This document shows positions 1-24,547 of a DNA stretch of 25,485 bases, piece after piece. The stretch lies in assembly GCA_009699025.1 (NCBI GenBank), contig WLOZ01000003.1, forward strand, positions 1-25,485, written 5' to 3'. The first letter of the stretch is position 1, and each line of letters starts with the position of its first letter. The translations under genes and the position numbers were made by a program. The notes under the pieces are model-generated. The model saw nothing but the letters and a program-made list of their open reading frames with translations. It was not told the DNA's origin and ran no database searches. The DNA is from Actinomycetota bacterium (GTDB lineage Bacteria; Actinomycetota; Actinomycetes; S36-B12; CAIYMF01).

Positions 1-153
1 AACCCCCGCGTACGACGTGAACTGGGCTACCCAGGCCCGGTACCCATGCGTCAACCAGCCCTACCCGACGAAGCCGACGCCTACCTCGAAGACGGCATCC
101 TCGACGTCGTCATCGCCCGCGGCCCCATCTACCGCCCCACCCCCGAGGCCTGA
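1..153 (+). CDS. C-terminal fragment of an unrecognised protein
   Basis: Frame 1 is open from the first base of the window to a TGA at 151-153, giving the last 50 residues of a gene that starts outside the window. The tail is proline-rich and acidic and includes the stretch LEDGILDVVIARGP near its end. I do not recognise the family and could not match it by eye to the YhfZ or YhfT tails that might be expected beside this cluster. The stop lies only 4 bases before the stop codon of the minus-strand phosphotriesterase gene, so the two genes converge. A much longer reading frame in another phase over the same bases (17-937) is a shadow of the opposite-strand gene. Confidence 0.5.
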   Translation, partial: NPRVRRELGYPGPVPMRQPALPDEADAYLEDGILDVVIARGPIYRPTPEA

Positions 154-157: not shown

Positions 158-1108
158 TCAGTCCTCGACGTCTGGCGGGCTGTGCCAGGTGAGCAAACGT
201 GCCGGGTTGTCCACGGTAATTCGTCGCACCGCCTCGTCGTCGAGGCCTTCGCGCCTAAGCCACGGCACGAACCGCCACGGAATGTAGCTGTAGCCAGGTC
301 CACCACCCCACGACACCAGCGAACTGCGCCGGGCAAGGTCGCCAGAGAGCGTGATGTGGTCGACCAGTCCCTCGTCGACGAGACGAAGGATCATCTCGAT
401 CCGCGCGGAGTCCGGCTCGTACCAGTCCTTCGACACGCAGTCGTAGCCGAGGGTGAACCCGTCGCGCGCCAAGGCGCGATGCTCGGCAAAGTTCAGTTCG
501 CGGTCGAGGTGGCCGAGTGTGACGCGACGCGGATCGGCGCCCGCACTTGTGAGCAGGCGCGCTTGATCAACGGCCATAGTTCCGGCCGTGGTGTGGGTGG
601 TGATGGGCGCACCGGTGACCATCTGAGCGCCCGCGGCGGCAGTGAGAACTCGAGCCTCGGCGGCGGTGACGACGTCGCGCGAACTGCCTGCCTTGATCAC
701 GCCCGCCCGGATGCCTGTCGTACCGATTCCGATGGTCAGCTCGACCGTCATCTCCTCGAGGAGTTGGTCAATTCCGCGATGCTCGATGTCGAGCACGCCC
801 GACCAGTAGTCCACCGATACGTGACCGGTGGTGGCCACGACATGCACTCCGGAGGCCTGCGAGATGCGCGCGAGCGCTGCCACGTCACGACCGAACTCGG
901 CAACCGTGACCTCGACGAGGGTGCCGCCACCTGCTGAACGGTAGATCGCGAGTTCGTCGATCGCCCGCACCTCGTCATCGAGGAGCAGATCATCGTGATC
1001 ACGAAGCCGAGGGGCGGGAGCCGTCACGAGATGTTCGTGGCACAGGGTCAGCCCGAGAGTTGCGGGCGGAATATCACCGAGCACAGTTCGAACGAACTCT
1101 TGACCCAT
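158..1108 (-). CDS. php: phosphotriesterase-family metallohydrolase (Php/YhfV-like)
   Basis: This is a 316-residue amidohydrolase-superfamily protein of the phosphotriesterase family, which uses a two-metal centre to hydrolyse phosphoesters, lactones or related bonds. Visible ligands, numbered from the chosen start, are the HxH pair H24/H26 in TLCHEHL, K139 in GVIKAG, H172 in PITTHTT, H200 in LGHLD and D257 in SGDLA; this is the complete set. K139 is the position of the carbamylated bridging lysine of true phosphotriesterases; from memory, E. coli Php has Glu there. An ATG lies 15 bases upstream at 1123, but the family usually begins VRTVLGDIPP close to its N-terminus and a good -10 hexamer covers that upstream ATG, so 1108 is preferred. 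The gene is divergent from the shikimate-dehydrogenase-like gene. Family is certain; substrate is unknown. Confidence 0.88.
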   Translation of the reverse strand: MGQEFVRTVLGDIPPATLGLTLCHEHLVTAPAPRLRDHDDLLLDDEVRAIDELAIYRSAGGGTLVEVTVAEFGRDVAALARISQASGVHVVATTGHVSVDYWSGVLDIEHRGIDQLLEEMTVELTIGIGTTGIRAGVIKAGSSRDVVTAAEARVLTAAAGAQMVTGAPITTHTTAGTMAVDQARLLTSAGADPRRVTLGHLDRELNFAEHRALARDGFTLGYDCVSKDWYEPDSARIEMILRLVDEGLVDHITLSGDLARRSSLVSWGGGPGYSYIPWRFVPWLRREGLDDEAVRRITVDNPARLLTWHSPPDVED

Positions 1109-1118
1109 CACCGCACTT

Positions 1119-1147
1119 ATCATAACGTAGTGACAACATGATGACGA
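1119..1147 (-). promoter_or_regulatory. candidate promoter for the phosphotriesterase gene
   Basis: On the minus strand TCGTCA (1142-1147) and TATGAT (1119-1124) are separated by exactly 17 bases, matching a housekeeping-sigma promoter at 4/6 and 5/6 positions. The -10 ends 10 bases before the ATG at 1108, so a transcript would be leaderless or nearly so; leaderless mRNAs are common in Actinomycetota. The repeated candidate operator at 1124-1146 fills the spacer and part of the -35. This is inferred from spacing and similarity only. Confidence 0.35.
1124..1146 (-). promoter_or_regulatory. candidate operator, copy 1 of a repeated intergenic motif
   Basis: Read on the minus strand, this 23-mer starts CGTCATCATGTTG and ends TCACTACGTT. 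It matches the motif at 12959-12981 at 18 of 23 positions. It matches the one at 2890-2911 at both ends (CGTCATCA and CTACGTT) with one base deleted between. It lies in the divergent region between the phosphotriesterase gene and the shikimate-dehydrogenase-like gene and could control both. The likely binder is the GntR/UTRA regulator encoded at 2095-2883, by proximity; there is no direct evidence. Confidence 0.45.
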
Positions 1148-1166
1148 GAGAAAGCGGAGGGACAGG

Positions 1167-2108
1167 GTGAAGCGGCTTTACTTCATCGGTGTCTCCACGG
1201 CTTCCTCCGGCATCATGACCATCTTCCCGGCCTGGGCTGAGGCACTTGGCCTGTCCGCCCAGATGCACGGCGTTGACCTGCCCGTCGCGGCCCGCCCCGA
1301 CGATGTGCGCGCGGTCATCGACACACTGGCCGCCGATCCGAGCGCCGCCGGAGCGCTGGTCACCACCCACAAGGCGGCCGTCTGGGACCACGCAGCGAGC
1401 CGCTTCTCGGTACTCGACTCCTGGTCCCAACTGTGTCGAGAGATCTCGTGTATTGCGGTGCGTGAGGAAGGTTTGATCGGGTGGGCGAAAGACCCGATCA
1501 CCGCGCGTCAGGCCTATACCCACCTCCTCGGCGAAGACCCGTGGCGTGGTGGCGAGCGAGACGTAGTGTGCCTCGGCGCGGGTGGCGCGGGCCTGGCACT
1601 GGCGACAGCCCTTCTCAACGGCGCGGATCAACCGCGAAGAGTCGTACTCGTTGATCGCAATCCGCAGCGCCTGGCCGTGTCACGTGAGGCGCTGAGCGAA
1701 CTCCAGATTCGGGCCGAACTTGAACTCGTCGAGATCAGCGACCCCCAGCAGGCAGGGGCACTGGTATCGGCGTCGGCCGAAGGATCGTTGATTGTGAACG
1801 CGACCGGGATGGGCAAGGACCTGCCCGGCTCGCCCATCGGGCCCGACGTGCAATTTCCGCGCGGTGCCGTGACCTGGGACCTTAACTACCGCGGCGAGTT
1901 GGCTTTCCTTGACATCGCGAGGGCACAGGAGGCCGAGCGGGGCCTGATCGTGGCCGACGGGTGGCGGTACTTCCTCCACGGCTGGACCGAGGTCATCGCA
2001 GAAGTATTCGGGATCGAGATGTCGCCCGCCGTGTTCACATCACTGGCATCTATCGCCGGCATGGTGTCAGGTCGCGAGGTGGGTCGTGACGCTGTCAGCC
2101 GTGGTTAA
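1167..2108 (+). CDS. shikimate dehydrogenase-like NAD(P)-dependent oxidoreductase
   Basis: This 313-residue protein has the two-domain plan of the shikimate/quinate dehydrogenase family. The catalytic lysine is K69 in VTTHK (usual VTxPxK). D109 in GWAKDP takes the place of the NTD aspartate. The Rossmann loop GAGGAG is at 137-142, NATGMG at 211-216 stands for the usual NATPxGM, and WDLNY follows. The N-terminal serine motif that binds the shikimate carboxylate is not present in normal form (GVSTASSGIM), so the substrate is probably not shikimate. The GTG start at 1167 has GGAGG 6 bases upstream. The stop overlaps the last 14 bases of the convergent gntR gene. There are no other aromatic-pathway genes nearby, which fits a catabolic role in this cluster. 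Confidence 0.8.
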   Translation: MKRLYFIGVSTASSGIMTIFPAWAEALGLSAQMHGVDLPVAARPDDVRAVIDTLAADPSAAGALVTTHKAAVWDHAASRFSVLDSWSQLCREISCIAVREEGLIGWAKDPITARQAYTHLLGEDPWRGGERDVVCLGAGGAGLALATALLNGADQPRRVVLVDRNPQRLAVSREALSELQIRAELELVEISDPQQAGALVSASAEGSLIVNATGMGKDLPGSPIGPDVQFPRGAVTWDLNYRGELAFLDIARAQEAERGLIVADGWRYFLHGWTEVIAEVFGIEMSPAVFTSLASIAGMVSGREVGRDAVSRG

Positions 2109-2883
2109 GGGAGGCGCCCGCCGAGTGACGGCTGTCGCGCACGACGTTCATTTCGATGCGCATCCGGTCGGCCCGGTGCCAGGCAAGAAAACATTCGATG
2201 ACCTCGCCCGCACTGTTCCGCGCCACCGACTCGATGTAGAGCAGCGGTTCGCCCGAGCCGACCTCCAGCAGTTTGCTCAGCATGCCCGACGCAGCGACGG
2301 CCTCGATGGAACGATGACCTGTGTCAATGCGCAGGCCAAACTGGTCGGCGAGGATTCGGTACAGCGACGCCGTGGAAAGGTCGGTGCCGCGCAACTGTTC
2401 GAGCATGGTCTCGTCGTCGCGCACAATGTAGGACTTCGTGAACGCGACGACCTCGTCATTAACTGCTCGGAGCCGGACGATCTCGATGCAGTGGGTACCG
2501 GGAGAGGCGCCGATCAACTCACGCGCCCGACCCACGACCTCGACGCGGTCAACCGACAGGACGCTGCTCAACACAGAGTGCCCGTGGCTGGTCATGTCTT
2601 CGAAGAAGCCGACCGTGCTTTCCATGAACTGCTCGGACAACTTGGGCTTGGCGACGAAGGTGCCTTTGCCACGCCGGCGCTGCAGAACGCCTTCGTTGAC
2701 GAGTTCGCCGACGGCCTGGCGCACCACAGTGCGCGAGACTTCGTAGCGCGCACACATCTCGGCCTCGGAGGGCATGAGATGGCCGGGCTCGAGGCTGTCG
2801 CGAGCGATTTCGCGAACGATCAACTGCTTGAGCTGCTCGTAGTAGGGCAACCGCGCATCATGATCGATCCCGAGGTCCGTCAC
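2095..2883 (-). CDS. GntR-family (HutC/UTRA) transcriptional regulator
   Basis: This 262-residue regulator has an N-terminal winged helix at about 11-78, with the typical LPYYEQLKQLI entry, the PSEAEMCARYEVSRTVVRQA recognition region and the RRRGKGTFV wing. A UTRA ligand-binding domain follows at about 95-245. UTRA regulators usually sense sugar phosphates, amino sugars or amino acids and repress neighbouring genes. The GTG start at 2883 is the first good codon before the helix. A copy of the repeated motif lies 7 bases upstream (2890-2911), in the divergent region shared with the yhfU-like operon, which fits autoregulation and control of that operon. In E. coli the yhf operon also ends with a GntR-like gene (yhfZ), but this protein is of the ordinary UTRA type. 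Confidence 0.92.
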   Translation of the reverse strand: MTDLGIDHDARLPYYEQLKQLIVREIARDSLEPGHLMPSEAEMCARYEVSRTVVRQAVGELVNEGVLQRRRGKGTFVAKPKLSEQFMESTVGFFEDMTSHGHSVLSSVLSVDRVEVVGRARELIGASPGTHCIEIVRLRAVNDEVVAFTKSYIVRDDETMLEQLRGTDLSTASLYRILADQFGLRIDTGHRSIEAVAASGMLSKLLEVGSGEPLLYIESVARNSAGEVIECFLAWHRADRMRIEMNVVRDSRHSAGASLNHG

Positions 2884-2889
2884 GGGTAG

Positions 2890-2911
2890 AACGTAGCATC
2901 AGGTGATGACG
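2890..2911 (-). promoter_or_regulatory. candidate operator, copy 2 of a repeated intergenic motif
   Basis: On the minus strand the site begins CGTCATCA and ends CTACGTT, the same ends as copy 1 at 1124-1146, with a one-base shorter middle. It contains a 12-base inverted repeat, CATCA-GG-TGATG (2897-2908), of the size bound by GntR-family dimers. It lies between the divergent gntR and yhfU-like genes. Confidence 0.45.
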
Positions 2912-2993
2912 TCACGTTGTCCACCCGCTGCCATCCACCAGGCGACAACACTCACCGCACGTCCATCAGGAAGCCACAGGGAAGGAAGAACCG

Positions 2994-3398
2994 ATGACCA
3001 AGGAACGGCTCGTCCGCGTCGTCGTGGCAGGTGTCGATGCACCTTCCATGGCGGAGCTCGCCACGAATGCAGGAGGTGGTCGCGTCGAGGCGGCCGCTCT
3101 CGGTGACATGCAGGGTGCTCGCCTGATCAAGAAGGGACAGGCCGACTACTACCTCGGAACGTGCTGGTCTGGAGGTGGCGGGGCGCTGGCTGCGGCCACC
3201 GCCATTTTGGGCGCCAACCTCGTCGGAATCGTCGGCACACCCGGCATGGTCGTGACCGACGAACGGGTGCGCACCGCCGTCGGCGAGGGCCGCATCGCTT
3301 TCGGGTTCGCCTATGAGCAAACAGCCGCCGCGATCCCCATCATCATCAGAGAAATCCTCGCCTACCGCGATGCGCACAGTGGAGGACAGGATGGGTGA
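2994..3398 (+). CDS. yhfU: DUF2620 family protein (YhfU-like)
   Basis: This small 134-residue protein without signal peptide or clear membrane segment matches my memory of the DUF2620/YhfU family. It has an N-terminal beta strand (VRVVVAGVD), then LGDMQGARLIKKGQADYY and a glycine-rich turn CWSGGGGALAAA, then LVGIVGTPG and a C-terminal helix. E. coli YhfU (about 117 residues) lies in the yhfSTUVWXYZ operon next to php; its activity is unknown to me. The ATG at 2994 follows a purine-rich GGAAGG site. The gene opens a six-gene operon with overlapping or nearly touching genes and overlaps the next one by 8 bases. The regulatory motif lies about 80 bases upstream. Family moderately certain; function unknown. 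Confidence 0.75.
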   Translation: MTKERLVRVVVAGVDAPSMAELATNAGGGRVEAAALGDMQGARLIKKGQADYYLGTCWSGGGGALAAATAILGANLVGIVGTPGMVVTDERVRTAVGEGRIAFGFAYEQTAAAIPIIIREILAYRDAHSGGQDG

Positions 3399-3801
3399 CT
3401 CATCGCTGAAGTCGGCCCAGGCGCAACTGGCCGCCGAGTTCACCGAGAGACTCGATCTGCTCGAGGAAAGCGGTCAGGTCACCAACCTGGCCCGCCGGCT
3501 GACCCTGATGTGCCTGACCGACCTCACGACCACCCTTGACCTCGCGCTCACCGAGGACAACGCCGCGCAGTTCGTTACGCACCTTGCCATCGCTCTCACA
3601 CGTATCAACCGCGGCGACCCCGAGATCGCGATGTCCGCAGTCGCGGCAGAGGAAATCGCCGACCGCACGCGTGAGCACGACGCCGTCACGGCCGTGATGC
3701 GCGACGCCTCGCGCTTGCTACAGCGCGACGTTCCGGAGTCGGAGATCACGTACATGACGGTCCACCTGTGCGGCCTCGTCGACGATGAGGCAGCGTCCTG
3801 A
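3391..3801 (+). CDS. yhfY: stand-alone PRD (PTS regulation) domain protein, YhfY-like
   Basis: This 136-residue protein appears to be a single PTS regulation domain with no DNA- or RNA-binding part. The two hallmark histidines are visible: H64 in FVTHLAIALTRINRG and H125 in TYMTVHL. In BglG/LicT-type regulators such histidines are phosphorylated by HPr or EIIB. The frame is open further upstream, but the ATG at 3391 has GGAGG 5 bases before it and gives a normal PRD length, so it is the likely start. It overlaps the yhfU-like gene by 8 bases. Genes for HPr and Enzyme I lie 2.4 kb downstream in the same operon, which suggests that this protein is the target or reporter of their phosphorelay. 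E. coli YhfY is a comparable lone PRD. Confidence 0.8.
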   Translation: MGDSSLKSAQAQLAAEFTERLDLLEESGQVTNLARRLTLMCLTDLTTTLDLALTEDNAAQFVTHLAIALTRINRGDPEIAMSAVAAEEIADRTREHDAVTAVMRDASRLLQRDVPESEITYMTVHLCGLVDDEAAS

Positions 3802-3806
3802 TCGTG

Positions 3807-5009
3807 ATGAAGCGCGCGGTCATCGTGGTTCTCGACGGCTTCGGAGTCGGGGCGACTCCAGATGGTGACTCGGCCGACCTCACGATGAACACGCTGGCTC
3901 ATATCGCTGACTCCGCAGATCTCCACCTACCCTGTCTCGCGTCGCTTGGTCTCGGTCACCTTGTTCCTGACGCAGTCGCCCCCGTGGCCGAACCGCGTGC
4001 GGCATACGGCCGGCTCACACCCGTTCACGTGGGTGCCGACACGTATATGGGGCATCAGGAACTCATGGGTGGCAGCGTGGCACGAGTCGAGTTCCGGCTC
4101 ATGGACGAACTCGGCGACGCCGTCACTGCAGCATTGGAATCCGCCGGGCACACGGTTGAGCCGCTCATTGTCGGACAGTCAATGCTGCTCGTCGACGGCG
4201 TAGCAGTGGTGCACGACAACATCGAGGCGCGCGCACGGCTGAACGTCAACGTCACCGCATCCCTCGACGACATCAGTTTCGACAATCTCACCGAGATCGG
4301 AATGATCGTGCGCCGCGCCATCAACGTCTCGCGGGTGATCGTCGTCGGCAGTCGCGGCTACGACGTCGATGGCATCCGTGCCCACATCGTGCATCGCGGC
4401 GATGGTCACATCGGTGTCGATACACCGAGTCTGGGCGTCTATAGCGAGCACTATCAAGTACGGCACCTCGGGCTCGAGCTGCCGGTCGAGCGCCAACTCC
4501 CGATGCGGGTGAGGAATCGCGGCGGAGACGTCGTCCTGCTTGGCAAGGCCGCCGATGTGGTGCGGTGCGAGGGGGCGACCCTCGAGAATCTCGTACCGAC
4601 GAACGACGTGTTCGACGCCGCAATACGGCATCTCGACGTGTTGCGACAGGGACTCATCGTGGCGAATGTGCAGGAAACTGATCTCGCCGGACATGAGCAG
4701 GATGCCAAGCGCTACGCACGCGTTCTGGGCACCGTCGATGCTCGACTGCCCGAACTGATCGATCGCCTCGGCCCTGATGACGTTCTTGTGATCACCGCCG
4801 ATCACGGCAACGACCCAACATCGGGTAGTAGCCGTCACACTCGCGAATACGTCCCGGTCCTTATTTATGGCCACCAGCTACAACCGGTCGATCTCGGGAT
4901 TCGTTCGTCACTGGCTGACGTCGGCGCCACCGTCGCTGACCTGCTCGGTACCGAGTCGCTCGACTCAGGTACATCCTTCGCTCAGGAGCTCACGTGTTCA
5001 TCGATGTAA
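3807..5009 (+). CDS. yhfW: phosphopentomutase-like metalloenzyme, alkaline phosphatase superfamily (YhfW-like)
   Basis: This 400-residue protein has the full metal and nucleophile set of phosphopentomutase: D10 in VVLDGFGVG, nucleophile T79 in GADTYMGHQELMGG, D292 and H296 in QETDLAGHEQD, D332/H333 in TADHGNDP and H344 in HTREYVPVL. Phosphopentomutases move phosphate between C1 and C5 of pentoses. YhfW-type proteins are a separate branch whose substrate is, to my knowledge, unproven. A GTG at 3804 directly precedes the ATG at 3807; either could be used, and there is no strong ribosome site, so translation is probably coupled to the PRD gene that ends 6 bases earlier. The gene overlaps the next by 16 bases. 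Its place between PRD and yhfX matches the E. coli-type cluster. Confidence 0.85.
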   Translation: MKRAVIVVLDGFGVGATPDGDSADLTMNTLAHIADSADLHLPCLASLGLGHLVPDAVAPVAEPRAAYGRLTPVHVGADTYMGHQELMGGSVARVEFRLMDELGDAVTAALESAGHTVEPLIVGQSMLLVDGVAVVHDNIEARARLNVNVTASLDDISFDNLTEIGMIVRRAINVSRVIVVGSRGYDVDGIRAHIVHRGDGHIGVDTPSLGVYSEHYQVRHLGLELPVERQLPMRVRNRGGDVVLLGKAADVVRCEGATLENLVPTNDVFDAAIRHLDVLRQGLIVANVQETDLAGHEQDAKRYARVLGTVDARLPELIDRLGPDDVLVITADHGNDPTSGSSRHTREYVPVLIYGHQLQPVDLGIRSSLADVGATVADLLGTESLDSGTSFAQELTCSSM

Positions 5010-6202
5010 CCCGCCGCCGCAACCCCGCACTCATCGACGCTGCGGTCGATCTTCACCAGTCTGGTCGGATTCCGTCCAACTGCTACGTGATCGACCTCGA
5101 CACCGTGTCTGCCAATGCGGCACTCGTCGCGCGAGCAGCTGCGTCGCACGGGCTTACGGCGTACCAGATGACCAAGCAGTTTGGCCGCAATCCGATTGTG
5201 GCCAGCGCAGTGGCAGCGGCGGGCATTGACAAGGTAGTCGCCGTCGACTTCGAGGAGGCGCGGCTGCTCGCCCACCACGGTCAGCGCATCGGTCATCTGG
5301 GGCATCTTGTTCAGATTCCGCGCGACGAGATCGGTCTGGCCCTTGAGATGGAACCCGACTTCATCACGGTCTTCGGTTACGACCAGGCCGCTCACCTCAG
5401 CCACGTCGCTCACGAACGCGGCATTGTTCAAGATGTCACGCTGCGCGTGGTGGGACCTCACGACACCTTCTACCCTGCGCAGCGCGGCGGTGTGCCGATC
5501 GATGAGGTGATCGAGGTGGCCAGCCGTATGCACGACCTTCCCGGCGTTCGCCTGCGTGGGGTCACCAGTTTTCCCGTGGTGCTGTGGGACGAGTCAGTCG
5601 GCGCATTCGCGCCCACTCACAACCTCGCGACACTCGGTGCGGTGTCGCAGTCGCTGCGGGCCGTGGGCATCGACGTCGATGTCCTCAATGCACCGAGTGC
5701 CTGCTGCACGGCAACGTTCGCAATGAAAGCGGCAGCCGGCGCCACACACGTTGAGCCCGGAAGTTGTCTCACGGGTCAAACTCCGCTCCATGCACTGAGC
5801 GACGAACCCGAACTTCCGGCGATGGTGTACGTGTCCGAGGTGTCCCACACCACCGCCGATGCCGCCTACGCAATTGCCGGTGGCCTCTACCCGCGGTGTA
5901 AGTCGCGCACCGCCCTCGTCTATCGCGAGGCGGGGGCAGCACCACGTGTGTGCCAGGTCGAACTCGATCCGGCCGAAGCGATCGACTACTACGGAACTCT
6001 GCGCACCGACAATCCACGATCGGTGCGGGTCGGAAGCACGGTTGTCTATGCTTTCCGGGCGCAGGCGTTCGTGAGCAGGTGCTTCGTCGCCGTCGTCAGT
6101 AACATCACGGGGACTCCGGCCGTCGAGGGCGTCTTCACCAACAGCGGATTCCGACTCGGACCCGACCTGCTTCCGGCCGCAAACGAAAGCGTGACGTTGT
6201 GA
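4994..6202 (+). CDS. yhfX: alanine racemase-fold PLP enzyme (YhfX-like)
   Basis: This 402-residue fold-type III PLP enzyme resembles the N-terminal alanine racemase family. The strand-lysine element reads YVIDLDTV followed by AYQMTKQFGRNP, with K61 the expected PLP-binding lysine. Further signatures are RGVTSFPVV, the cysteine pair in APSACCTATF, and EPGSCLTG near the phosphate-binding region. Fold III enzymes racemise or decarboxylate amino acids; the YhfX branch has no assigned substrate that I know of. The GTG start at 4994 has AGGAG 5 bases upstream and lies inside the end of the yhfW-like gene. The stop overlaps the HPr start in a GTGA. Confidence 0.83.
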   Translation: MFIDVTRRRNPALIDAAVDLHQSGRIPSNCYVIDLDTVSANAALVARAAASHGLTAYQMTKQFGRNPIVASAVAAAGIDKVVAVDFEEARLLAHHGQRIGHLGHLVQIPRDEIGLALEMEPDFITVFGYDQAAHLSHVAHERGIVQDVTLRVVGPHDTFYPAQRGGVPIDEVIEVASRMHDLPGVRLRGVTSFPVVLWDESVGAFAPTHNLATLGAVSQSLRAVGIDVDVLNAPSACCTATFAMKAAAGATHVEPGSCLTGQTPLHALSDEPELPAMVYVSEVSHTTADAAYAIAGGLYPRCKSRTALVYREAGAAPRVCQVELDPAEAIDYYGTLRTDNPRSVRVGSTVVYAFRAQAFVSRCFVAVVSNITGTPAVEGVFTNSGFRLGPDLLPAANESVTL

Positions 6203-6474
6203 GTGCCAGTCGTACGGCCATCATCGCCGATCCACTCGGCCTTCACGCACGCCCCGCCGCGGAGTTCGTGACGCGAGCCCGCACCTACGAGTCTGATCTC
6301 AGCATCGCGTCCGGTGACAAGACCGGCAACTGCAAGAGCCTCATCTCGATCCTCAAGTTGGGCATCGCCGTTGGCACCGAGGTGACGATCACTGCCGCTG
6401 GTCCCGATGAGGCGGCAGCCATCGAGGAACTCGGCTCATTCCTCGAAATCGTGCACGGGGACGACGCGCCGTGA
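6199..6474 (+). CDS. ptsH: HPr-like phosphocarrier protein of the PTS
   Basis: This 91-residue protein has the HPr site-1 motif DPLGLHARPAAEF with H16 as the phospho-accepting histidine. The second site is NCKSLISILKLG, with S47 at the regulatory serine position (Ser46 of other HPrs). The length is normal. It would take phosphate from Enzyme I, encoded immediately downstream. The GTG start at 6199 overlaps the yhfX-like stop, and its own stop overlaps the EI start, both as GTGA. Because it sits inside the yhf-like operon with a PRD protein and no EII genes, it is likely a dedicated copy rather than the general HPr, but whether the genome has another is not visible here. Confidence 0.92.
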   Translation: MSASRTAIIADPLGLHARPAAEFVTRARTYESDLSIASGDKTGNCKSLISILKLGIAVGTEVTITAAGPDEAAAIEELGSFLEIVHGDDAP

Positions 6475-8147
6475 TCGTGAGCGGCATTCCCGTTTCTGGC
6501 GGGACGGCTGTCGGACGCCTCGTCGTCATCGGCGTGCTGAAGCCCACTGACGCCCTGTCGTCGCACATCATCGCAAGTGCCGACGAGCAGCTGACCCGAC
6601 TGCTCGCGGCTGTTGCTGCCAGTCGCGACGAGATCGCGTCGATCGCCGACGACACACGACAGCGCATCGGAAGCGAACCGGCTGCGATTATCGAGGCCCA
6701 ATTACTCGTGCTCGACGATCCGGAGTGGTGGGATCAGATTCGAGACGATGTGCGCAATGGAGCCGAGCCCACGGCCGCGGTGTGGGAGGTCACCGAGGGA
6801 GTAGCCCAGGCTCTCTCGTCACTCGATGATCCCTACCTACGCGAACGATCGGCCGATGTGCTTGACGTCGGCCAGCGCGTCATCGGTCATCTTGAGGGCC
6901 GGTCGCGAACCAGTGCACTTCAGGGCCAGACCGGCGACGTGATCGTGGCAGCGCATGAGCTCACGCCCACTGACACACTCGACCTTGATCTCAACGTTGT
7001 TCGAGGCATCGTGACCGAGGCCGGAGCCCGAACGTCACACGCCGCCATCCTGGCGCGGCAGTTGGGAATCCCCGCTGTGGTCGGCGCGGCGGGCATTCTC
7101 AAGGCTGCTTCCCCTGGCGTCGTCGTCGTGCTCGACGGCGATGCGGGAACGTGCGAGATCGATCCGCAGCCGCGTGACCTCGATCGAGCGCGCGCCAAGT
7201 CGGTCCGGCAGATGACGCATGCGGTGATGAGCCACGCAGTGACGACCCGCGACGGAGTTGCAGTGCAGGTGCTCGCCAATGCGTCGAGTGTCGCCGACGT
7301 CACGCGTGCTGTTGCTGAAGGTGCGGACGGCATCGGGCTGTACCGAACCGAATTCCTGTTCATGCGCTCCGATACGGCACCGGATGAGCAGGCACAGACC
7401 GAGCACTACATGGCGGTCGCAGAGGCTGCCGGTGGGCGCCCGGTGACATTTCGAACCCTTGACGTCGGCGGCGACAAACCGGTTCCGGGATTGCAGGTCG
7501 AGGCTGAGGAGAATCCTTTCCTCGGCGTGCGCGGCATCCGTCTGACCCTCGCGAACCGTCCGGTGTTCGACGGTCAGTTGCGCGCCCTTGCGCGCACCGC
7601 AGCGGCTTTCCCCGGAGTGTCTGTCATGGTGCCGATGGTCTCGGGACTCGAAGAACTTGACGAGGTGCGCGGCATTCTGCGCGACGTAACCCCCCGGGCT
7701 GCATTCCGCTTTGGCGCCATGGTCGAGGTTCCTAGCGCCGCCCTTCTCATCGATGCTTTCGCCTCAGAAGTCGACTTCCTCTCCGTCGGCACCAACGACC
7801 TCACCGCCTATGTGCTCGCGGCTGATCGCGGTAACCGGCATCTGCACGAGCTCTACTCCGAGTTCCATCCGGCGGTCCTGCGGGCTCTGCAGCTTATCCG
7901 CGCCGGAGCCGGCGACACTCCGCTCAGCGTGTGCGGTGAGTTGGCCGGTGACCCACGGGCGACGGGTCTTCTCGTCGGTCTGGGCTATCGACAGTTGTCG
8001 GTGTCTGGGCCACTCGTTCCGGCTGTCAAGGAACGGATCAGCAGACTCAATGCAGGGGCGGCTGAGCGCGCCAGCGCTGACCTGATGCGTGCGCGTCGAC
8101 GTAGCGATGTCGACGCCGTCCTGAATTCGCTGACCTTCGAGGACTGA
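6471..8147 (+). CDS. ptsI: phosphoenolpyruvate-protein phosphotransferase (PTS Enzyme I)
   Basis: This 558-residue cytoplasmic protein has normal Enzyme I length and order: an N-terminal helical HPr-binding region (about 30-140), the phosphohistidine swivel domain with H190 in GARTSHAAILAR, and a C-terminal TIM barrel that binds PEP. In the barrel I see GLYRTEFLFM, GGDKPVPG, MVPMVSG, a metal-site region AMVEVPSA, SVGTNDLTAYVLAADR and SVCGELAGD with the active-site cysteine. All expected catalytic motifs are present. It transfers phosphate from PEP to HPr, encoded just upstream with a GTGA overlap. No EIIA, EIIB or EIIC gene lies in the window. It is the last gene of the plus-strand run and converges on the HAD gene with a 27-base gap. 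Confidence 0.95.
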   Translation: MIVSGIPVSGGTAVGRLVVIGVLKPTDALSSHIIASADEQLTRLLAAVAASRDEIASIADDTRQRIGSEPAAIIEAQLLVLDDPEWWDQIRDDVRNGAEPTAAVWEVTEGVAQALSSLDDPYLRERSADVLDVGQRVIGHLEGRSRTSALQGQTGDVIVAAHELTPTDTLDLDLNVVRGIVTEAGARTSHAAILARQLGIPAVVGAAGILKAASPGVVVVLDGDAGTCEIDPQPRDLDRARAKSVRQMTHAVMSHAVTTRDGVAVQVLANASSVADVTRAVAEGADGIGLYRTEFLFMRSDTAPDEQAQTEHYMAVAEAAGGRPVTFRTLDVGGDKPVPGLQVEAEENPFLGVRGIRLTLANRPVFDGQLRALARTAAAFPGVSVMVPMVSGLEELDEVRGILRDVTPRAAFRFGAMVEVPSAALLIDAFASEVDFLSVGTNDLTAYVLAADRGNRHLHELYSEFHPAVLRALQLIRAGAGDTPLSVCGELAGDPRATGLLVGLGYRQLSVSGPLVPAVKERISRLNAGAAERASADLMRARRRSDVDAVLNSLTFED

Positions 8148-8174
8148 GTCGCCGGCAGCGAGACCGCACTACCG

Positions 8175-8834
8175 TCACCCAGAGCGGCGCCGGACATCGA
8201 GATCGGCGAGCGAGTGGGCGCTCAGGACACCGGGTGGGAATGCGTGGCCCCGCGTCCATTCACTCGGAACCACCACGGTGGTGAGGCCCGCCGCCACTGA
8301 GGCAGCGGCACCGATGGCGGAGTCTTCGACGCCGACGGCGGCGTCGGGTGTCACTCCCAGTTGGCTCAGGGCATTGAGGTAGACATCCGGTGCAGGCTTG
8401 GGCGCGCCGCTGAATGAACCACCACGTCCGACCAGTACGTCGATCTGCGAGTTCAGGCCGAGCGCCTTGATCGCACACGTGACCACAGTGACGGGGCTTG
8501 ACGAGGCGACTGCCACGACGACGCCGCAGTTCACCGTGCGATGCACGAACTCGATTGCGCCCTGAATGGGGACGGGATCGAGGTAGAACCGGGCAAGCCG
8601 ATGCTCACGACGTCGCAGTAGATCGTCAACGGCGACACTCAACCCGAAGTGCGAGACGAGCGCGGTGTAGAGGTGGGAGCTCGAGAGACCGACACTCGTG
8701 GCGAATAGATCTCGGCTCAGACTCACCCCTTCTTGGCTGAAGATCTCGCAGGCAACCTCGAAAGCTGCCGACTCGCTGTCGACAAGGAGGCCGTCAAGAT
8801 CGAGCACGACGGCGTCCGCCACTAGCAGCATCAC
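8175..8834 (-). CDS. HAD-superfamily hydrolase, beta-phosphoglucomutase-like
   Basis: This 219-residue HAD subfamily IA protein has motif I DLDGLLVD (nucleophile D12, acid/base D14), motif II AVASSSP, motif III lysine in GAPKPAPDVY, and motif IV GVEDSAIG. The cap helix region at about 20-80 and the overall length fit sugar-phosphate phosphatases or beta-phosphoglucomutases; sequence alone does not separate these two. The chosen start is GTG at 8834, with an AGGT site 7 bases upstream, overlapping the end of the preceding gene's stop region; ATG at 8831 is an alternative. It is the last gene of the minus-strand operon that begins at 12939. It probably dephosphorylates or isomerises an intermediate of this pathway. 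Confidence 0.85.
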   Translation of the reverse strand: MMLLVADAVVLDLDGLLVDSESAAFEVACEIFSQEGVSLSRDLFATSVGLSSSHLYTALVSHFGLSVAVDDLLRRREHRLARFYLDPVPIQGAIEFVHRTVNCGVVVAVASSSPVTVVTCAIKALGLNSQIDVLVGRGGSFSGAPKPAPDVYLNALSQLGVTPDAAVGVEDSAIGAAASVAAGLTTVVVPSEWTRGHAFPPGVLSAHSLADLDVRRRSG

Positions 8835-8839
8835 GTCAC

Positions 8840-9781
8840 TTACCTCGTGACGTCGTAGAGCATCGGCTCGTTCGCGAGGCCGCGCATCAACTCCTCAACA
8901 GCAAGAACCCCTGCGCGCACGATGGCATCAACGGTGGCCGCCCCACAGTGCGGTGTGAAGATCACATTCGGCACGTCGCGCAGCGGACTGTCGGCGGGCA
9001 GTGGCTCCTGTTCAAAACTGTCGAGGGCTGCCGCGGCCAGAGGTCCGCTCACGAGCGCGTGCGCGAGGGCCACCTCGTCGACAATGCCACCGCGGGCGGA
9101 GTTCACGAGCAGGCTGCCAGGTCGCATCGCAGCGAGGAAATCCGCATCAACAAGGTGATGAGTTTCAGCGGTGTACGGCGCATGGATCGAGATCACATCT
9201 GAGCGGGCCACTAAGTCGTCGAGACTCACGAGCGGGATGTCGCCCTCCTGCGCCAGTGGGTCGTAGCCGATGACGGTCATGTCGAATGCGCGCGCTCGCG
9301 CGGCCACTTCGCGTCCGATGCGCCCGGTGCCCACGAGTCCGAGGGTGCGTCCGGCGAGTTCAATTCCGTTCGCGCGCGACCAGGATCCTGCCCGAACTGC
9401 GCGATCCATCATCGGTATCGACCGCGCCGCCGCGAGCATCAACCCGACGCTGAGTTCCGCAACCGAAGTGGTGGTGGCTCCCAGCGTGAGTGAGACGCGG
9501 ATTCCGAGTTCACGCGCGATAGCGAGATCGACGTTGTCGGTGCCGATGCCGAATCTCACGATCGTCGTGAGACTCGTGGCAGCACGCAATACAGATTCAG
9601 AGGCCTCATCCACTCCGAGAATCACACCGGCACAGCCCTCGAGAAGTTCGGACAACTCGTCGGCGGTGAGGGGTCGCTGTTCAGTCGCGAAGCGGACCTC
9701 AAGGCCGCTCGCCTTCAGCAGGTCGCGGTGCGGACCAGGCGTCTGGCGGAAGCCCCGTGGGGTGACGGCAACCGTGGTCAC
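8840..9781 (-). CDS. D-2-hydroxyacid dehydrogenase (phosphoglycerate dehydrogenase-like)
   Basis: This 313-residue NAD-dependent enzyme has FGIGTDNVD near residue 80 and the Rossmann loop GLVGTGRIG at about 148-156, followed by an aspartate in GYDP for NAD. The catalytic triad is R230 in NSARGG, E259 in FEQEP and H278 in TPHCGAAT. There is no C-terminal ACT domain, unlike many SerA proteins, so a catabolic hydroxyacid reductase or dehydrogenase is likely. The GTG start at 9781 overlaps the stop of the upstream cupin gene (GTGA). It lies third from last in the minus-strand operon, before only the HAD gene. The substrate, perhaps a sugar acid or a keto acid made by the neighbouring aminotransferases, is inference. 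Confidence 0.88.
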   Translation of the reverse strand: MTTVAVTPRGFRQTPGPHRDLLKASGLEVRFATEQRPLTADELSELLEGCAGVILGVDEASESVLRAATSLTTIVRFGIGTDNVDLAIARELGIRVSLTLGATTTSVAELSVGLMLAAARSIPMMDRAVRAGSWSRANGIELAGRTLGLVGTGRIGREVAARARAFDMTVIGYDPLAQEGDIPLVSLDDLVARSDVISIHAPYTAETHHLVDADFLAAMRPGSLLVNSARGGIVDEVALAHALVSGPLAAAALDSFEQEPLPADSPLRDVPNVIFTPHCGAATVDAIVRAGVLAVEELMRGLANEPMLYDVTR

Positions 9782-10344
9782 GACGACACGTATCGCGGAT
9801 TCGGTTGAACCTGCGGGCCATCGTTGCCCTCGACCACGATGACCGGGAACCCTCGTTCGGCGATCGTCGCGTAGTCATAGCCGGCATCACCGATGTACAC
9901 GGCGTAGAAGACCAGCGGTGTCGTGCCGGTGTTCACCGAGCGGTGCGCCCAGTGACCAGGCACGTAGTTGGCGACCCCCGGTCGCATGTCCTTGGTGACT
10001 GTTCTGCCGTCTTCGAGGGCCATCACGAGGATGCCTTCCCCCGACAGCGTCAAGTAGATTTCGGCACGATCACGGTTGGCATGGAAGTGTCCCTTGGTGA
10101 AGAAGTACTCGTCGCCCACCTTGCCAGGTGCCAAGACAGTTGTCGACGAGAGCAGGTTGTTGCCCGACTTGGGAACCCGGACTTCGTGCACCGTGTACGC
10201 ACCGACCTCCGGATCGGTGATGTCCGCAAGGAAGTAGCCGTCGAGGTCGGCGAGTCGACGGTCGAGGACGTCGGGGTCGGGAGCCAGAGCACCGGTGCCG
10301 AAGTCGATGGTCACTGAGAAGGGTTCAAGCAGGGCATCAGTCAT
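9778..10344 (-). CDS. cupin-type phosphoglucose isomerase-like protein
   Basis: This 188-residue protein matches the cupin glucose-6-phosphate isomerase family known from archaea and some bacteria. The metal-binding motif is clear: H86 and H88 in TKGHFHANRDRAEIY, E95, and H134 in HWAHRS. The family-typical tail GDAGYDYATIAERGFP is present. Such enzymes interconvert aldose and ketose phosphates using a divalent metal. The ATG at 10344 has GGAG 8 bases upstream. A 26-base gap separates it from the yhfS-like gene before it, and it overlaps the dehydrogenase after it. Most bacteria use the unrelated SIS-fold Pgi for glycolysis, so a cupin isomerase here probably acts on the cluster's own sugar phosphate. 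Confidence 0.82.
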   Translation of the reverse strand: MTDALLEPFSVTIDFGTGALAPDPDVLDRRLADLDGYFLADITDPEVGAYTVHEVRVPKSGNNLLSSTTVLAPGKVGDEYFFTKGHFHANRDRAEIYLTLSGEGILVMALEDGRTVTKDMRPGVANYVPGHWAHRSVNTGTTPLVFYAVYIGDAGYDYATIAERGFPVIVVEGNDGPQVQPNPRYVSS

Positions 10345-10370
10345 GGTGGGTCTCCGGTTTTAGTATGTGC

Positions 10371-11567
10371 TTAGGCGCGCACTGCGGCGTGGAAGTCTGA
10401 GTCGGCGAGGGCAGCGCGCAGCACGCGCATCACGGTCTGGGTGCCGCCTCGCAGGGGATTGATGCGCACGGCGTACTTCTCAAGTCCCGGTGTTGCTTTC
10501 AGGAAGGTGCTCGTGAGGTAGGTGAAGAGAGGGAGGAATTCGAACTGCGCCTCCTCGCCCACCGACTGACTCGGCGAGCCGTTGCGCCATGCCGATCTGA
10601 GGAACTCCTCGGCCACGGGGTGGTTGAACAGCAGGACGATGCAGCGGATACCAGGCTGCGCCGAGTACGCGCCGGCAAGGAATGGGAGGTCGCCGGCCGC
10701 GATTGCCGCGTTGATCTCATCGACCGCACGCAGGACGGTCTGGTTGTGAATCGCCAACGCCACCGGCGCGTAGATCAGAGAACGCAGCGCCGCCATGGCA
10801 TACGGGCCCTGGACCTGCGCGCCAGCCGACGCATTGTCGCGGCGAATCCGACCCGCAGAGTCAGCATCGGTGAGGACGGCGCCGATTGCCTGCGGCGCCA
10901 ACAACTTGAACAACGACAGCGCGGAGGCGTCGGCGCCCATCTCAACACCGATGCGGTGCGACCGCATCACGGCGTAGTTGTCGTCAACCAGAACCCGCAG
11001 ATTGTCGCCACCAGCGGAACGGGCACGTTCGATGGTCTGCTCAATGCTGTACGAGTCACCGAGTTGTTGGGGAACATGCTGAATAAAGACCGTTGAGGGA
11101 GACTGCGCACGTACCGTGTTCTCAAGCTCAGCACTGTCGTTGAAATCTGCGTACTGAATGTCCAGACCCATGTGCTGCATCGCAGGCAGGGTGGTCTTGT
11201 ACGGGTGCGCCTTATGCAGCAGGATTCGCGAGCCCGGTTCGACGAGTCCATTGAGCATGGCGCGAATCGATCCGGTGCCGGCTCCGTGCACGAGGATCGC
11301 ATCCTCGGCCCCGAAAAAGCGTGCCAACACTTCCTCGACCCGAGCGGTCGCCCTCGGCCTACCGCCACCGCCGAAGCCCACGGTGGCGAGTTCACGCACC
11401 TGGCCGTAGTCCTCGACGAAAACCTCGTCGGAACCCATCACCTGCGCGGCTATTTCAACCAGTCGGAACTGGTGCTCGGTGGCATCCTCGACCGACATGT
11501 GGTCGCGGACGGTGGTCTGCTCGAACTGACTCGCGAAGTCGGCGACACGCTCGTGGTCAGAGTTCAC
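10371..11567 (-). CDS. yhfS: YhfS-like PLP-dependent enzyme (aminotransferase/lyase fold I)
   Basis: This 398-residue fold-type I PLP enzyme has a glycine-rich cofactor loop VHGAGTGS at 93-100, the cofactor aspartates in VLVDDNYAV near 195, and K221 in LSLFKLLAP as the likely Schiff-base lysine. Its length and these features resemble YhfS, a distant relative of Cys/Met-metabolism PLP enzymes, which is the first gene of the E. coli yhf operon. The frame opens at 11603, but GTG at 11567 is the better start: GAGG lies 6 bases upstream and it overlaps the preceding aminotransferase stop by 11 bases. The reaction is unknown. Finding it with YhfU, YhfW, YhfX, YhfY and Php counterparts supports the identification. 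Confidence 0.78.
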   Translation of the reverse strand: MNSDHERVADFASQFEQTTVRDHMSVEDATEHQFRLVEIAAQVMGSDEVFVEDYGQVRELATVGFGGGGRPRATARVEEVLARFFGAEDAILVHGAGTGSIRAMLNGLVEPGSRILLHKAHPYKTTLPAMQHMGLDIQYADFNDSAELENTVRAQSPSTVFIQHVPQQLGDSYSIEQTIERARSAGGDNLRVLVDDNYAVMRSHRIGVEMGADASALSLFKLLAPQAIGAVLTDADSAGRIRRDNASAGAQVQGPYAMAALRSLIYAPVALAIHNQTVLRAVDEINAAIAAGDLPFLAGAYSAQPGIRCIVLLFNHPVAEEFLRSAWRNGSPSQSVGEEAQFEFLPLFTYLTSTFLKATPGLEKYAVRINPLRGGTQTVMRVLRAALADSDFHAAVRA

Positions 11568-12939
11568 CGAGCACCTCATCGATGGCACGACAGGTTGCGG
11601 CAACCATCTCCGCGGCGTCGGACATTGTGGTGACCAGTGCCGGGAACAGTGTGATCACATCGCCGGTCGCGCGGAGCATGAAGAGGTTCTTCATCGCTCG
11701 ATCCATCACCTGACGGCCAACGCCGAGTTCCTTGGGGAAGGCTGAGCGGGTCGCTGTGTCCTGCACCAGTTCAATTCCGATGAGCAGACCCTTTCCACGC
11801 ACGTCACCCACGTTTGGGTGGTCGGCATAGATACGTGCGAACTCCTCAATCATCCACTCACCCACCCGTTCGGCATTGCCGACGAGGTCCTCTTTCTCGA
11901 TGGCGTCGAGAACGGCAATTCCAGCTGCGCAGGCGGTGGGGTGCGCCGCGTAGGTGTGCCCGGAGACCTTCGCCTGGCCGCCCATCTGATCACCGTAGAT
12001 CGTCTCCATCACGCGCGAGGTGGCGATCGCGGCTCCCAGTGGTACGTAGCCGCCGGTGATTCCCTTGGAGGAGGTGACGATGTCCGGGGTCACACCGAAG
12101 TGTTGAAACCCAAACCATCGCCCGGTCCGCCCGACCCCGATGAACACCTCGTCGTCGATCCAGAGGATGTCGTACCGGTCGCAGATCTCGCGAAGTCGGT
12201 GCAGGTAGTTGGGCGGCGGAACCAGGACCAGAGCCGCCGGAATAGCCTCGGCCAGGATGCCGGCGATGCGTTCAGGCCCGACGCTGCGGATGGTGGCCTC
12301 CAGGGCGTCGGCGCAGGCATCGCCGTAGTCCTCCTCGGTCATGTGCTCAGGGCGCCGATAGGGGTAGCAGGCATCCACCTCGACAAACCCGGGCGCTAGC
12401 GGCGCAAACCAGGTGCGGAACTCAGCGTTGTCGCTCGCGCTCGCGCCGACCAGCGTCGTGCCGTGGTAGCCGGTCTTGCGGTAGAGGAAAATATTCTTGT
12501 CGGGGTTGCCACGGACACGATGGAAGCTTTTCGCCAGTTGTGTCGCGCTCTCGACGGCCTCCGAGCCGGACGAAACGAAAAAACTCGTCTGCAGGTCGGC
12601 GTCGGTCAGGCCCGCGAGACGCCGTCCGAGCTCGATCGAGGGTTCGTTAATGAACGTGCGAAGCGACACCCAGTGCAGTTGCGTCATCTGGGCGTGAACC
12701 GCGTCGGCGATGTCGACCCGCCCGTGACCGAGAGTCGCTGCAGCCGAGCCTCCCGAGAGCGCGTCGAGGTACTCGTTGCCATGGACGTCGGTGACGCGAA
12801 CCCCGCTTGCAGACACGGCCAGCGGCCCATTGTCCTCGCGGGTCGCAGCGGCTGAGACGCCATGGCGCCAGACGTATCTGATCGAATCCTCGACAAGGGC
12901 TTCTATTTGTTCGTTGGATGCCCTATTTTTGTCGAACAT
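11557..12939 (-). CDS. class III PLP-dependent aminotransferase
   Basis: This 460-residue enzyme of the omega-aminotransferase group has SGSEA at 124-128, GYHG at 157-160, the cofactor aspartate in WIDDEVFIGVGRTG near 263, and K292 in SSKGITGGYVPLGA. Class III enzymes move amino groups of omega-amino acids, amines or amino sugars to a keto acid. The frame also contains ATG at 12963 and GTG at 12945. The ATG at 12939 is chosen because GAGGAAGGA lies about 9 bases before it and the 12963 ATG sits inside a candidate -10 region. It is the first gene of the minus-strand operon and is divergent from the SIS gene. The specific substrate cannot be called. Confidence 0.9.
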   Translation of the reverse strand: MFDKNRASNEQIEALVEDSIRYVWRHGVSAAATREDNGPLAVSASGVRVTDVHGNEYLDALSGGSAAATLGHGRVDIADAVHAQMTQLHWVSLRTFINEPSIELGRRLAGLTDADLQTSFFVSSGSEAVESATQLAKSFHRVRGNPDKNIFLYRKTGYHGTTLVGASASDNAEFRTWFAPLAPGFVEVDACYPYRRPEHMTEEDYGDACADALEATIRSVGPERIAGILAEAIPAALVLVPPPNYLHRLREICDRYDILWIDDEVFIGVGRTGRWFGFQHFGVTPDIVTSSKGITGGYVPLGAAIATSRVMETIYGDQMGGQAKVSGHTYAAHPTACAAGIAVLDAIEKEDLVGNAERVGEWMIEEFARIYADHPNVGDVRGKGLLIGIELVQDTATRSAFPKELGVGRQVMDRAMKNLFMLRATGDVITLFPALVTTMSDAAEMVAATCRAIDEVLGEL

Positions 12940-12958
12940 AGACACTTGTCCTTCCTCA

Positions 12959-12981
12959 AACATAGTAACATCATGATCACT
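12959..12981 (-). promoter_or_regulatory. candidate operator, copy 3 of a repeated intergenic motif
   Basis: On the minus strand this 23-mer begins AGTGATCATGATG and ends TTACTATGTT, and it matches copy 1 at 1124-1146 at 18 of 23 positions. It starts 19 bases before the aminotransferase start, in the divergent region shared with the SIS gene. Its TACTAT (12962-12967) could be the aminotransferase -10; no good -35 accompanies it. Position, orientation and sequence all agree with copies 1 and 2. Confidence 0.45.
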
Positions 12982-13025: not shown

Positions 13026-14069
13026 ATGCCCCTTACCTCCTCGCCTGGCCACTTCATGGCTGCCGAGATTGCCGAGCAGCCCGAGTGCGTTCGTGCCGCC
13101 TTGGCTGGCGTGCGCGAGCAGGCCGCTGTGCTGGCGCCTCTCGTCGCGGCGGCGCGCGAGGTGAGAATCCTGGGCCGAGGATCGAGCCGCTCGGCCGGCA
13201 CCTACGCGGCCGAGGCCCTGCGATCGTTCGCAGGGGTCCCGGCATCCGGAATGTCACCCGCACATCTGGCCTGGTCGCAGGTTCAGCGGATGGACGGCAC
13301 TCTGGTCGTCGCGATCTCGCAGTCCGGCGAGAGCACCGAAATCGTCGCGGCGGCCCGTCGTTCACTCGAACTGGGTGCGACCCTCATCGTCGTCACGAAC
13401 TCGCCGGCATCGGAACTCGCGGCGCTGGCGGGGCCGAGCCAGACGGTGCACTTCCGGGCCGGCAGCGAGGTGGCAGTGCCCGCCACCAAAAGTTTCACAT
13501 CGTCGCTCGCCTGTCTGCTGGGGTTAGCGATGGCACATGCACCCCAGAACCTCAGCGACGCCCAGGCCCAGCTTCCGCAACTCATGGCCGAGGTGCTGGC
13601 CAATCCAGACGCCACCTTCACTCTCGACGGTACGACCAACATCGTGTGCGCGGGTGAGGGCTTTGCCGAAGCGGTAGGCGAGGAAGGTGCGATCAAACTA
13701 CGCGAGACATTGCGCATTCCCGTCGCCTCGTTTGAGACCAGCGAATTCCTGCACGGCAACATCAATTCCGTCGGATCTCACACCACCGTGGTCACGGTCG
13801 GCGCCGATCTCTCGGGGACGAGCCTGGCAGAGCAGGCCGTGGTCGGCGCGTCGAGCCGAGGAGCTGCAACGGTGAGCATCAGCTCGTCGACATCGAGTTC
13901 CGCAGGTCACCACATTCGCCTGCCCGAGGTGCCTTCCCAGTGGGTACCTTTCCTCGCGATACTGCCGATACAGCGCGCGGCACGCGCTGCTGCACTCGCT
14001 CGCGGTGAAGATCCCGATCGACCACCGGGCCTGTCTAAGATCACCCGCATTGACGCAGGTGCCGCGTAA
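13026..14069 (+). CDS. SIS-domain sugar-phosphate isomerase/deaminase (GlmS isomerase-domain/AgaS-like)
   Basis: This 347-residue protein has two SIS domains like the isomerase half of glucosamine-6-phosphate synthase, without the glutaminase domain. Visible elements are FMAAEIAEQPE at 10-20, GRGSS at 50-54, SQSGES at 99-103, VPATKSFT at 151-158, the KLRETL region, EFLHGN and the C-terminal DPDRPPGLSKITR. Relatives include AgaS-type amino-sugar-phosphate deaminases and FrlB-type fructoselysine-phosphate deglycases, so an amino-substituted sugar phosphate is a reasonable substrate, though unproven. The ATG at 13026 has GGAG 8 bases upstream. The gene is divergent from the class III aminotransferase and shares the copy 3 motif; the ABC genes follow after 81 bases in which I see no clear promoter or terminator. 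Confidence 0.85.
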   Translation: MPLTSSPGHFMAAEIAEQPECVRAALAGVREQAAVLAPLVAAAREVRILGRGSSRSAGTYAAEALRSFAGVPASGMSPAHLAWSQVQRMDGTLVVAISQSGESTEIVAAARRSLELGATLIVVTNSPASELAALAGPSQTVHFRAGSEVAVPATKSFTSSLACLLGLAMAHAPQNLSDAQAQLPQLMAEVLANPDATFTLDGTTNIVCAGEGFAEAVGEEGAIKLRETLRIPVASFETSEFLHGNINSVGSHTTVVTVGADLSGTSLAEQAVVGASSRGAATVSISSSTSSSAGHHIRLPEVPSQWVPFLAILPIQRAARAAALARGEDPDRPPGLSKITRIDAGAA

Positions 14070-14150
14070 ATCCCGACCTTGTACGTCGACTGGCCTCGAC
14101 ACCCAGACGTCCTCGCGCCATGATGCCGTCTCAACCGAAGGGAAACGTTG

Positions 14151-16687: not shown

Positions 16688-16727
16688 ACCGCTTTTCCCA
16701 CATTCGAGCAAGCAGGAGGAACAGGCC

Positions 16728-21300: not shown

Positions 21301-21315
21301 CTGCCCCGATCGAGG

Positions 21316-23584: not shown

Positions 23585-23659
23585 TGTCCGTTCTCCGTTC
23601 AGAGGTGTGGCTCCGCCGCCGGGATCACTCGAACCCGGTCCTGATTGCGATGGATGGGT

Positions 23660-24499: not shown

Positions 24500-24547
24500 G
24501 GGTTCTCCTTCGTCAGGGCTCTGGTGCCGGGTCTACGAGGCTGACTG

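Follow-up and report, generated by a model that had tools for sequence, protein, structure and literature searches.

A yhf gene set with its own phosphate-relay proteins suggests uptake and phosphorylation of a nitrogen-containing sugar through an unrecognized transport system

The DNA analyzed here (the window) is 25,485 nucleotides (nt) long, comes from an Actinomycetota bacterium (GCA_009699025.1, contig WLOZ01000003.1, positions 1 to 25,485 of the forward strand), and contains a cluster of genes related to the yhfSTUVWXYZ genes of Escherichia coli. The yhf set of the window is accompanied by its own phosphate-relay proteins, HPr and Enzyme I (EI), which suggests that it imports a nitrogen-containing sugar and phosphorylates it via an unrecognized transport system. 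These two proteins are the most informative part of the cluster because they tie the system to phosphoenolpyruvate (PEP)-dependent phosphorylation. A connection of the cluster to the PEP-dependent phosphotransferase system (PTS) is well supported. Our best explanation goes further and holds that an actinobacterial yhf catabolic system is coupled to its own PEP-dependent phosphorelay, with the phosphate reaching the substrate, a reading to which we give slightly less than an even chance.

Pfam and NCBIfam profile searches, by which the window genes were assigned, bear out the original prediction, made from this sequence alone, that the window holds members of the Php, YhfU, YhfW, YhfX, YhfY (PRD) and YhfS families; YhfU, the PRD protein, YhfW and YhfX lie in one neighborhood. 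Six genes on the forward strand follow one another there with gaps of −5, 2, −16, −4 and −4 bp. They encode YhfU (DUF2620; 2994..3398, profile E = 9e−30); a stand-alone PRD protein, the YhfY counterpart and proposed phospho-acceptor (3394..3801, PF00874, E = 4.5e−9); the phosphopentomutase-like metalloenzyme YhfW (3804..5009, NCBIfam PRK12383, 437.8 bits against a cut-off of 254); YhfX, a pyridoxal phosphate (PLP) fold III protein with an alanine racemase-like N domain (4994..6202, YhfX-like_C, E = 1e−24, solved relative 4kbx); HPr (6199..6474); and PTS EI (6471..8147). The phospho-His motif of HPr (LGLHARPAA) and the His (TSHAAI) and Cys (CGE) active-site motifs of EI are intact. We regard the cluster as going beyond chance because these six genes are coupled and because genome G402 is 87% identical to the window at the nucleotide level over positions 3-25485.

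To place the cluster among other genomes, GTDB representatives were scanned with the YhfU alignment. At least 139 loci were confirmed, and 80 of them, which belong to several phyla, were kept for counts; the presence of families in these 80 loci was scored with hidden Markov models built in this analysis, and absences may be over-counted, as some of the loci are on cut contigs. We use L-numbers for loci and G-numbers for genomes (L001 belongs to G001, which is of the same order as G402, and L140 to G567). According to record titles, L001 is from a Candidatus Nanopelagicales metagenome-assembled genome (MAG), L002 from Microbispora and L003 from Chloroflexi; L001 and L002 support the original prediction of a yhf-type cluster in an actinobacterium.

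Of the 80 loci, 6 (L001, L002, L003, L010, L023 and L037) have HPr within the yhf cluster and 4 have EI there; four fruB-like matches in Photorhabdus are left out. By their titles, the loci with HPr or EI come from Actinomycetota, Chloroflexi MAGs, a Treponema MAG and a Ruminococcaceae MAG. In L023, the base that follows the yhfW stop codon is the first of the HPr gene, and one metagenomic protein (P0209) is a fusion of YhfX and HPr. The yhf row of L037, from Chloroflexi, also includes an M20-type amidohydrolase and an MttB-like trimethylamine methyltransferase family protein (7411-8595 and 15302-16714), together with HPr, a peptide-type ATP-binding cassette (ABC) transporter recognized by eye and, further on, EI.

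Seven genomes, several of them draft MAGs, were examined as whole assemblies. G001, G402 and G005 each have a single EI, a single HPr and a single PRD protein, and the yhf locus holds all three; in G005, EI and HPr are on the yhf contig and strand but several kb from yhfU. The numbers of EI, HPr and PRD genes are two, one and one in G003, one, two and two in G004, two, three and one in G002, and one each in G176, where EI and HPr lie away from yhf. The only PRD gene of the genome is at the yhf locus in six of the seven genomes, and one of two is there in G004. Of the three EII families searched for (PTS_EIIA_2, PTS_EIIC and EIIA-man), none was found in G001, G003, G005 or G402, EIIA_2 alone was found in G004, and all three were found in G002 and G176.

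The two proteins that would receive the phosphate are strongly conserved at one residue each. Across 83 aligned sequences, YhfU has one invariant Cys (Cys57 in the window, codon 3162..3164, in a C-x-[ST]-G-x-G loop), and the PRD protein has one invariant His (codon 3580..3582 in the window, in THLAIALTR). The PRD family is not an EIIA family in Pfam, and the window YhfU matches only DUF2620 there and no known EIIB family. YhfU is predicted to have the fold of ribose-5-phosphate isomerase B (RpiB). It possesses the catalytic Cys loop of the RpiB/LacAB type (C-G-T-G-x-G), and a weak hhalign match (E = 0.068, probability 0.8 on a 0-100 scale) puts this loop in register with that of E. coli RpiB. 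Unlike RpiB and LacAB, YhfU falls under the PF02502 cut-off (13.6 bits for E. coli YhfU against a gathering score of 24.7), and none of its His or Arg positions reaches 90% conservation across the 83 YhfU sequences.

YhfU and the PRD protein also travel together, and with the membrane protein YhfT. PRD matches occur in all 80 YhfU loci. In 79 of them the match lies on the YhfU strand at most 5 kb away, and in 53 the distance is no more than 50 bp; in L014, the nearest match is weak and inside a 693-aa open reading frame (ORF). PRD is immediately upstream of YhfU in 52 loci, and YhfT immediately downstream in 76. YhfT itself is present in 78 loci, the remainder being L001, whose copy is on another contig, and L025, whose contig ends early. 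Other families are found in 77 (YhfX), 76 (Php), 76 (YhfS), 72 (YhfZ) and 64 (YhfW) of the 80 loci; no YhfW match was found in the Photorhabdus/Xenorhabdus clusters L029, L038, L044, L047, L051, L058, L061, L064, L070 and L073. An amidase-signature-like gene is present in 29 loci, and in L041 a single 768-aa open frame (10375-12681) joins YhfT to an amidase-like protein.

YhfT is not in the window, and the original prediction described the cluster as one without it. This was not confirmed: the gene is missing from the window only, probably as an artefact of the contig edge. YhfT is present in all seven relatives searched, and its absence from the window is best read as an edge effect because in both G001 and G402, the two closest genomes found, it is on a contig other than that of the cluster and because, in G402, the end of the YhfT contig and the start of the cluster contig are identical over 141 bp. 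The first base of the G402 cluster contig corresponds to window base 3. Read across this gap, G402 has a sugar-binding-protein-like gene, a 2-keto-3-deoxy-6-phosphogluconate-type aldolase gene on the minus strand, a short-chain dehydrogenase/reductase (SDR) gene, YhfT, a GMC oxidoreductase gene, a gene for a small protein, and then php onward. Three related assemblies (the window, L001 and contig C9 of G402) start within about 10 bases of one point. The structure of the L004 YhfT (10421-11707) was modeled with confidence (predicted local distance difference test score of 90) and had no usable PDB match; on this model, YhfT possibly represents an undescribed membrane fold.

In two loci, the PRD, YhfU and YhfT genes are also multiplied or displaced together. 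Three such triads lie within 20 kb in L034 (Bacillus sp. T33-2), one of them with no yhf enzymes in view and the third cut by the end of the locus; their YhfT proteins score 405, 231 and 185 bits (the last for the cut copy) against E. coli YhfT. In L072, the triad stays together at the cluster's far end. There is also a link to the SFCGS/DUF4310-4312 clusters (EF_0829-EF_0839 type), as the YhfU of L006 is above the cut-off of Gly_rich_SFCGS (PF14272). The row in L140 consists of a PRD protein (EF_0829 family, over the cut-off), SFCGS, DUF4312, DUF4311, DUF4310 and PTS_EIIC, followed by an EF_0837-type amidohydrolase, a DgaE family lyase that does not reach the cut-off of the narrower DgaE equivalog, and DgaF. 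Like the yhf triads, this row sets a PRD protein beside a DUF2620-related Cys/Gly-rich protein and membrane proteins, here with an EIIC; unlike them, it has other membrane proteins, and the EF_0837 amidohydrolase, the DgaE family protein and DgaF replace Php, YhfS, YhfX and YhfW. The SFCGS cluster of L142 also holds PTS_EIIC, and in neither L140 nor L142 is there an obvious EIIA or EIIB alongside. D-Glucosaminate, the subject of work by Miller in 2013, reportedly enters Salmonella by a mannose-family PTS permease. These arrangements fit, without proving, a transport or phosphorylation module that has been joined to differing catabolic sets.

Taken as a mechanism, phosphate would pass from PEP to the His of EI, the His of HPr, the His of the PRD protein, the Cys of YhfU and finally to the substrate, during or after its entry. 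That YhfU hands the phosphate on to the substrate is plausible, at best approaching an even chance. The PRD protein would then act as EIIA, the predicted RpiB-fold YhfU as EIIB and YhfT as EIIC, the three together making an unrecognized PTS-type permease; the substrate would enter through YhfT in most genomes, and an ABC permease is also present in the window. Compared with PTS permeases and with the DhaKLM-type PEP-dependent kinase, the yhf system is similar in that proteins offering a His acceptor and, as a candidate, a Cys acceptor are encoded alongside EI and HPr. It differs in that no EIIA, EIIB or EIIC of a known family is found among the yhf proteins, and phosphate transfer to its substrate is a prediction. 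The broader proposal is that PRD-YhfU-YhfT is a new PTS permease family extending from E. coli to Actinomycetota, with the SFCGS/DUF4310-4312 clusters as a second branch, and that EI and HPr are carried along in lineages without a general PTS; we consider it possible but offer it tentatively. Two observations caution against too simple a picture of the PTS link. Of the 164 genomes of the order without a YhfU match, 22 have EI, and in L001, L002 and L003 YhfT does not lie next to YhfU. The PRD claim is weaker for the SFCGS clusters: no PRD match was found in the small ORF beside SFCGS in L142, and the corresponding ORF of L141 matches PRD at an E value of only 0.015.

The relay may instead be regulatory only, an alternative that we take seriously and think somewhat improbable. 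HPr would phosphorylate the PRD protein, which would report PEP or sugar status to YhfT or to a regulator (GntR-UTRA in the window, YhfZ elsewhere). The substrate would be carried unphosphorylated by YhfT or the ABC system, and YhfU would be one of the enzymes. PRDs are PTS-regulated domains, regulator genes accompany the clusters (YhfZ in 72 of 80 loci and GntR in the window), and the window has an ABC transporter. However, Pfam shows no DNA-binding domain in the PRD protein (3394..3801), L034 repeats PRD-YhfU-YhfT as a set, and EI and HPr are co-encoded with yhf where none of the three tested EII families was found. Less likely still, YhfU could be an RpiB-type isomerase or epimerase acting on a phosphorylated substrate, with Cys57 serving as the base in the manner of ribose-5-phosphate isomerase B. 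The predicted fold and the Cys loop agree with this activity, but RpiB uses a ring-opening His and a phosphate-binding Arg in catalysis (the title of structure 2vvr refers to an H99N mutant), whereas YhfU conserves neither, and YhfU stands beside YhfT in 76 of 80 loci, even where no enzyme genes follow (L034). That EI and HPr are housekeeping PTS or PTS-Ntr genes settled beside yhf by chance is improbable: although 24 of 166 genomes of the order have EI, 22 of them without a YhfU match, Actinomycetota, Chloroflexi and a Treponema MAG carry EI or HPr within the yhf row in differing gene orders, PRD genes are concentrated at the yhf locus in the seven genomes described above, and PTS_EIIA_2, the family to which EIIA-Ntr belongs, was not found in G001, G402, G003 or G005.

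Under the preferred reading of a relay that ends on the substrate, Php, YhfX, YhfS and YhfW, with the class III aminotransferase in the window, would take apart a phosphorylated, nitrogen-bearing compound, and its sugar half would be released as a hexosamine phosphate. That the product is an amino-sugar phosphate, by inference a hexosamine phosphate, is moderately supported because NagB-like genes are far commoner directly after yhfW than among other non-core ORFs. For 53 yhfW genes, a non-core ORF comes next, and in 8 of these cases it is NagB-like and on the same strand, compared with 1 among 656 other non-core ORFs of ≥130 aa. Seven of these eight genes (all but that of L042) were checked in NCBIfam, and all seven are above the nagB cut-off. 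This association favors the amino-modified, phosphorylated sugar proposed originally. A double-SIS protein of the window (13026..14069, plus strand, PF01380), a candidate GlmS/NagB-II-like sugar-phosphate (de)aminase whose gene starts the next row, points more weakly in the same direction: its closest NCBIfam families are GlmS and NagB-II, and it is below both cut-offs (153 bits for GlmS; 138 against 430 bits for NagB-II). Deamination would be the task of NagB in some Firmicutes; in the window, the SIS enzyme would perhaps take this step, with the cupin isomerase acting next. As a guess, YhfW would be a hexosamine-1-phosphate/6-phosphate mutase. In E. coli K-12 (L081), the fructoselysine frl operon adjoins yhf, and in the window the SIS enzyme lies beside the yhf set; this may be coincidence. 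FrlB, the fructoselysine 6-phosphate deglycase, is of the SIS type.

The Php/YhfV-like phosphotriesterase (PTE)-family hydrolase (158..1123, minus strand, PF02126, E = 1.9e−60) has the HxH, Lys, His, His and Asp motif positions and falls short of the Php equivalog PRK09875 (170.5 bits against a cut-off of 486). By likeness to PTER, it could be an amide hydrolase, which is only a hint. PTER shares the PTE family with Php, judged by name, and is described in PMC11374699 as an N-acyl hydrolase, in mouse an N-acetyltaurine hydrolase, with metal-binding His residues.

The window YhfS (10371..11603, minus strand, PLP fold I, PF22475 [YhfS-like_C], E = 3.6e−19, solved relative 4j8l) belongs to the predicted family but is not the E. 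coli-type ortholog. In a tree of 79 YhfS ORFs, it forms a separate four-member clade with the L001 copy, the L002 copy and the aminotransferase-linked copy of L003; the further L003 copy is of the E. coli type and lies outside this clade. Next to it are genes for a class III aminotransferase (11557..12963), a cupin phosphoglucose isomerase-like protein (GPI; 9778..10344, PF06560, E = 5.9e−23), a phosphoglycerate dehydrogenase-like D-2-hydroxyacid dehydrogenase (8840..9781) and a HAD phosphatase or beta-phosphoglucomutase-like protein (8175..8834), all on the minus strand and assigned by Pfam and NCBIfam profiles. The profiles confirmed these four along with HPr and EI as extra partners of the yhf set. 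The shikimate dehydrogenase-like NAD(P) enzyme named with them (1167..2108, plus strand) matched only weakly: NCBIfam AroE models reach E = 3e−12, far below cut-off, Pfam gives no match, and structure 1nvt matches at E = 0.003. Beside yhfU is a GntR-UTRA regulator gene (2095..2883, minus strand), and YhfZ has no match in the window.

The extra partners recur in L001, L002, L003 and G402. All of them are common to L001 and G402; L002 has the AroE-like enzyme, GntR, HPr, EI, aminotransferase, GPI and hydroxyacid dehydrogenase; and L003 has HPr, EI, an aminotransferase with a second YhfS, SIS and an ABC permease. The AroE-like and GntR-UTRA genes recur in L001, L002 and G402. In L003 (4.5-5.8 kb), YhfX is split across two open frames, perhaps by an assembly frameshift. 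Compared with the E. coli yhfSTUVWXYZ genes, the window and its nearest relatives share the Php, YhfU, YhfW, YhfX, YhfY (PRD) and YhfS families, with YhfT in the relatives. The window differs in its added EI, HPr, AroE-like enzyme, aminotransferase, GPI, hydroxyacid dehydrogenase and HAD protein, in having GntR-UTRA and no YhfZ match, and in the paralogous clade of its YhfS.

At the contig edge, positions 1..152 (plus strand) encode the C-terminal end of an upstream gene, whose G402 copy is very weakly Gluconate_2-dh3-like (Pfam E = 0.12). At the other side, 14148-25468 holds a second sugar-type set, syntenic in G402 at 87% nucleotide identity: a sugar-type ABC transporter (ATPase and permease, 14148..16687, plus strand), an SDR, an old-yellow-enzyme-type reductase with EtfB/EtfA, two Gfo/Idh/MocA oxidoreductases and two xylose-isomerase-like TIM barrels. 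ABC, Gfo-like and TIM-like genes are likewise upstream of the yhf cluster in L042 (Neobacillus).

Among open-licence PubMed Central (PMC) papers, we found no functional study of yhf in searches that also covered DUF2620, SFCGS and DUF4310-4312. In the parts of PMC5293155, PMC3423039 and PMC7513527 that name them, yhf genes appear only in tables, in lists or as removed mutants, and passages of PMC11135667, PMC7701990, PMC7396535 and PMC10746210 name EF0838, DgaE or DgaF and leave SFCGS and PRD untreated. The PTS link, the predicted fold of YhfU, the candidate phospho-sites (the PRD His and the YhfU Cys) and the likely amino-sugar product make the yhf question testable at the bench. If transfer of phosphate to the substrate is true, the PTS would gain a permease family built from parts that have not been counted as EIIA, EIIB or EIIC.

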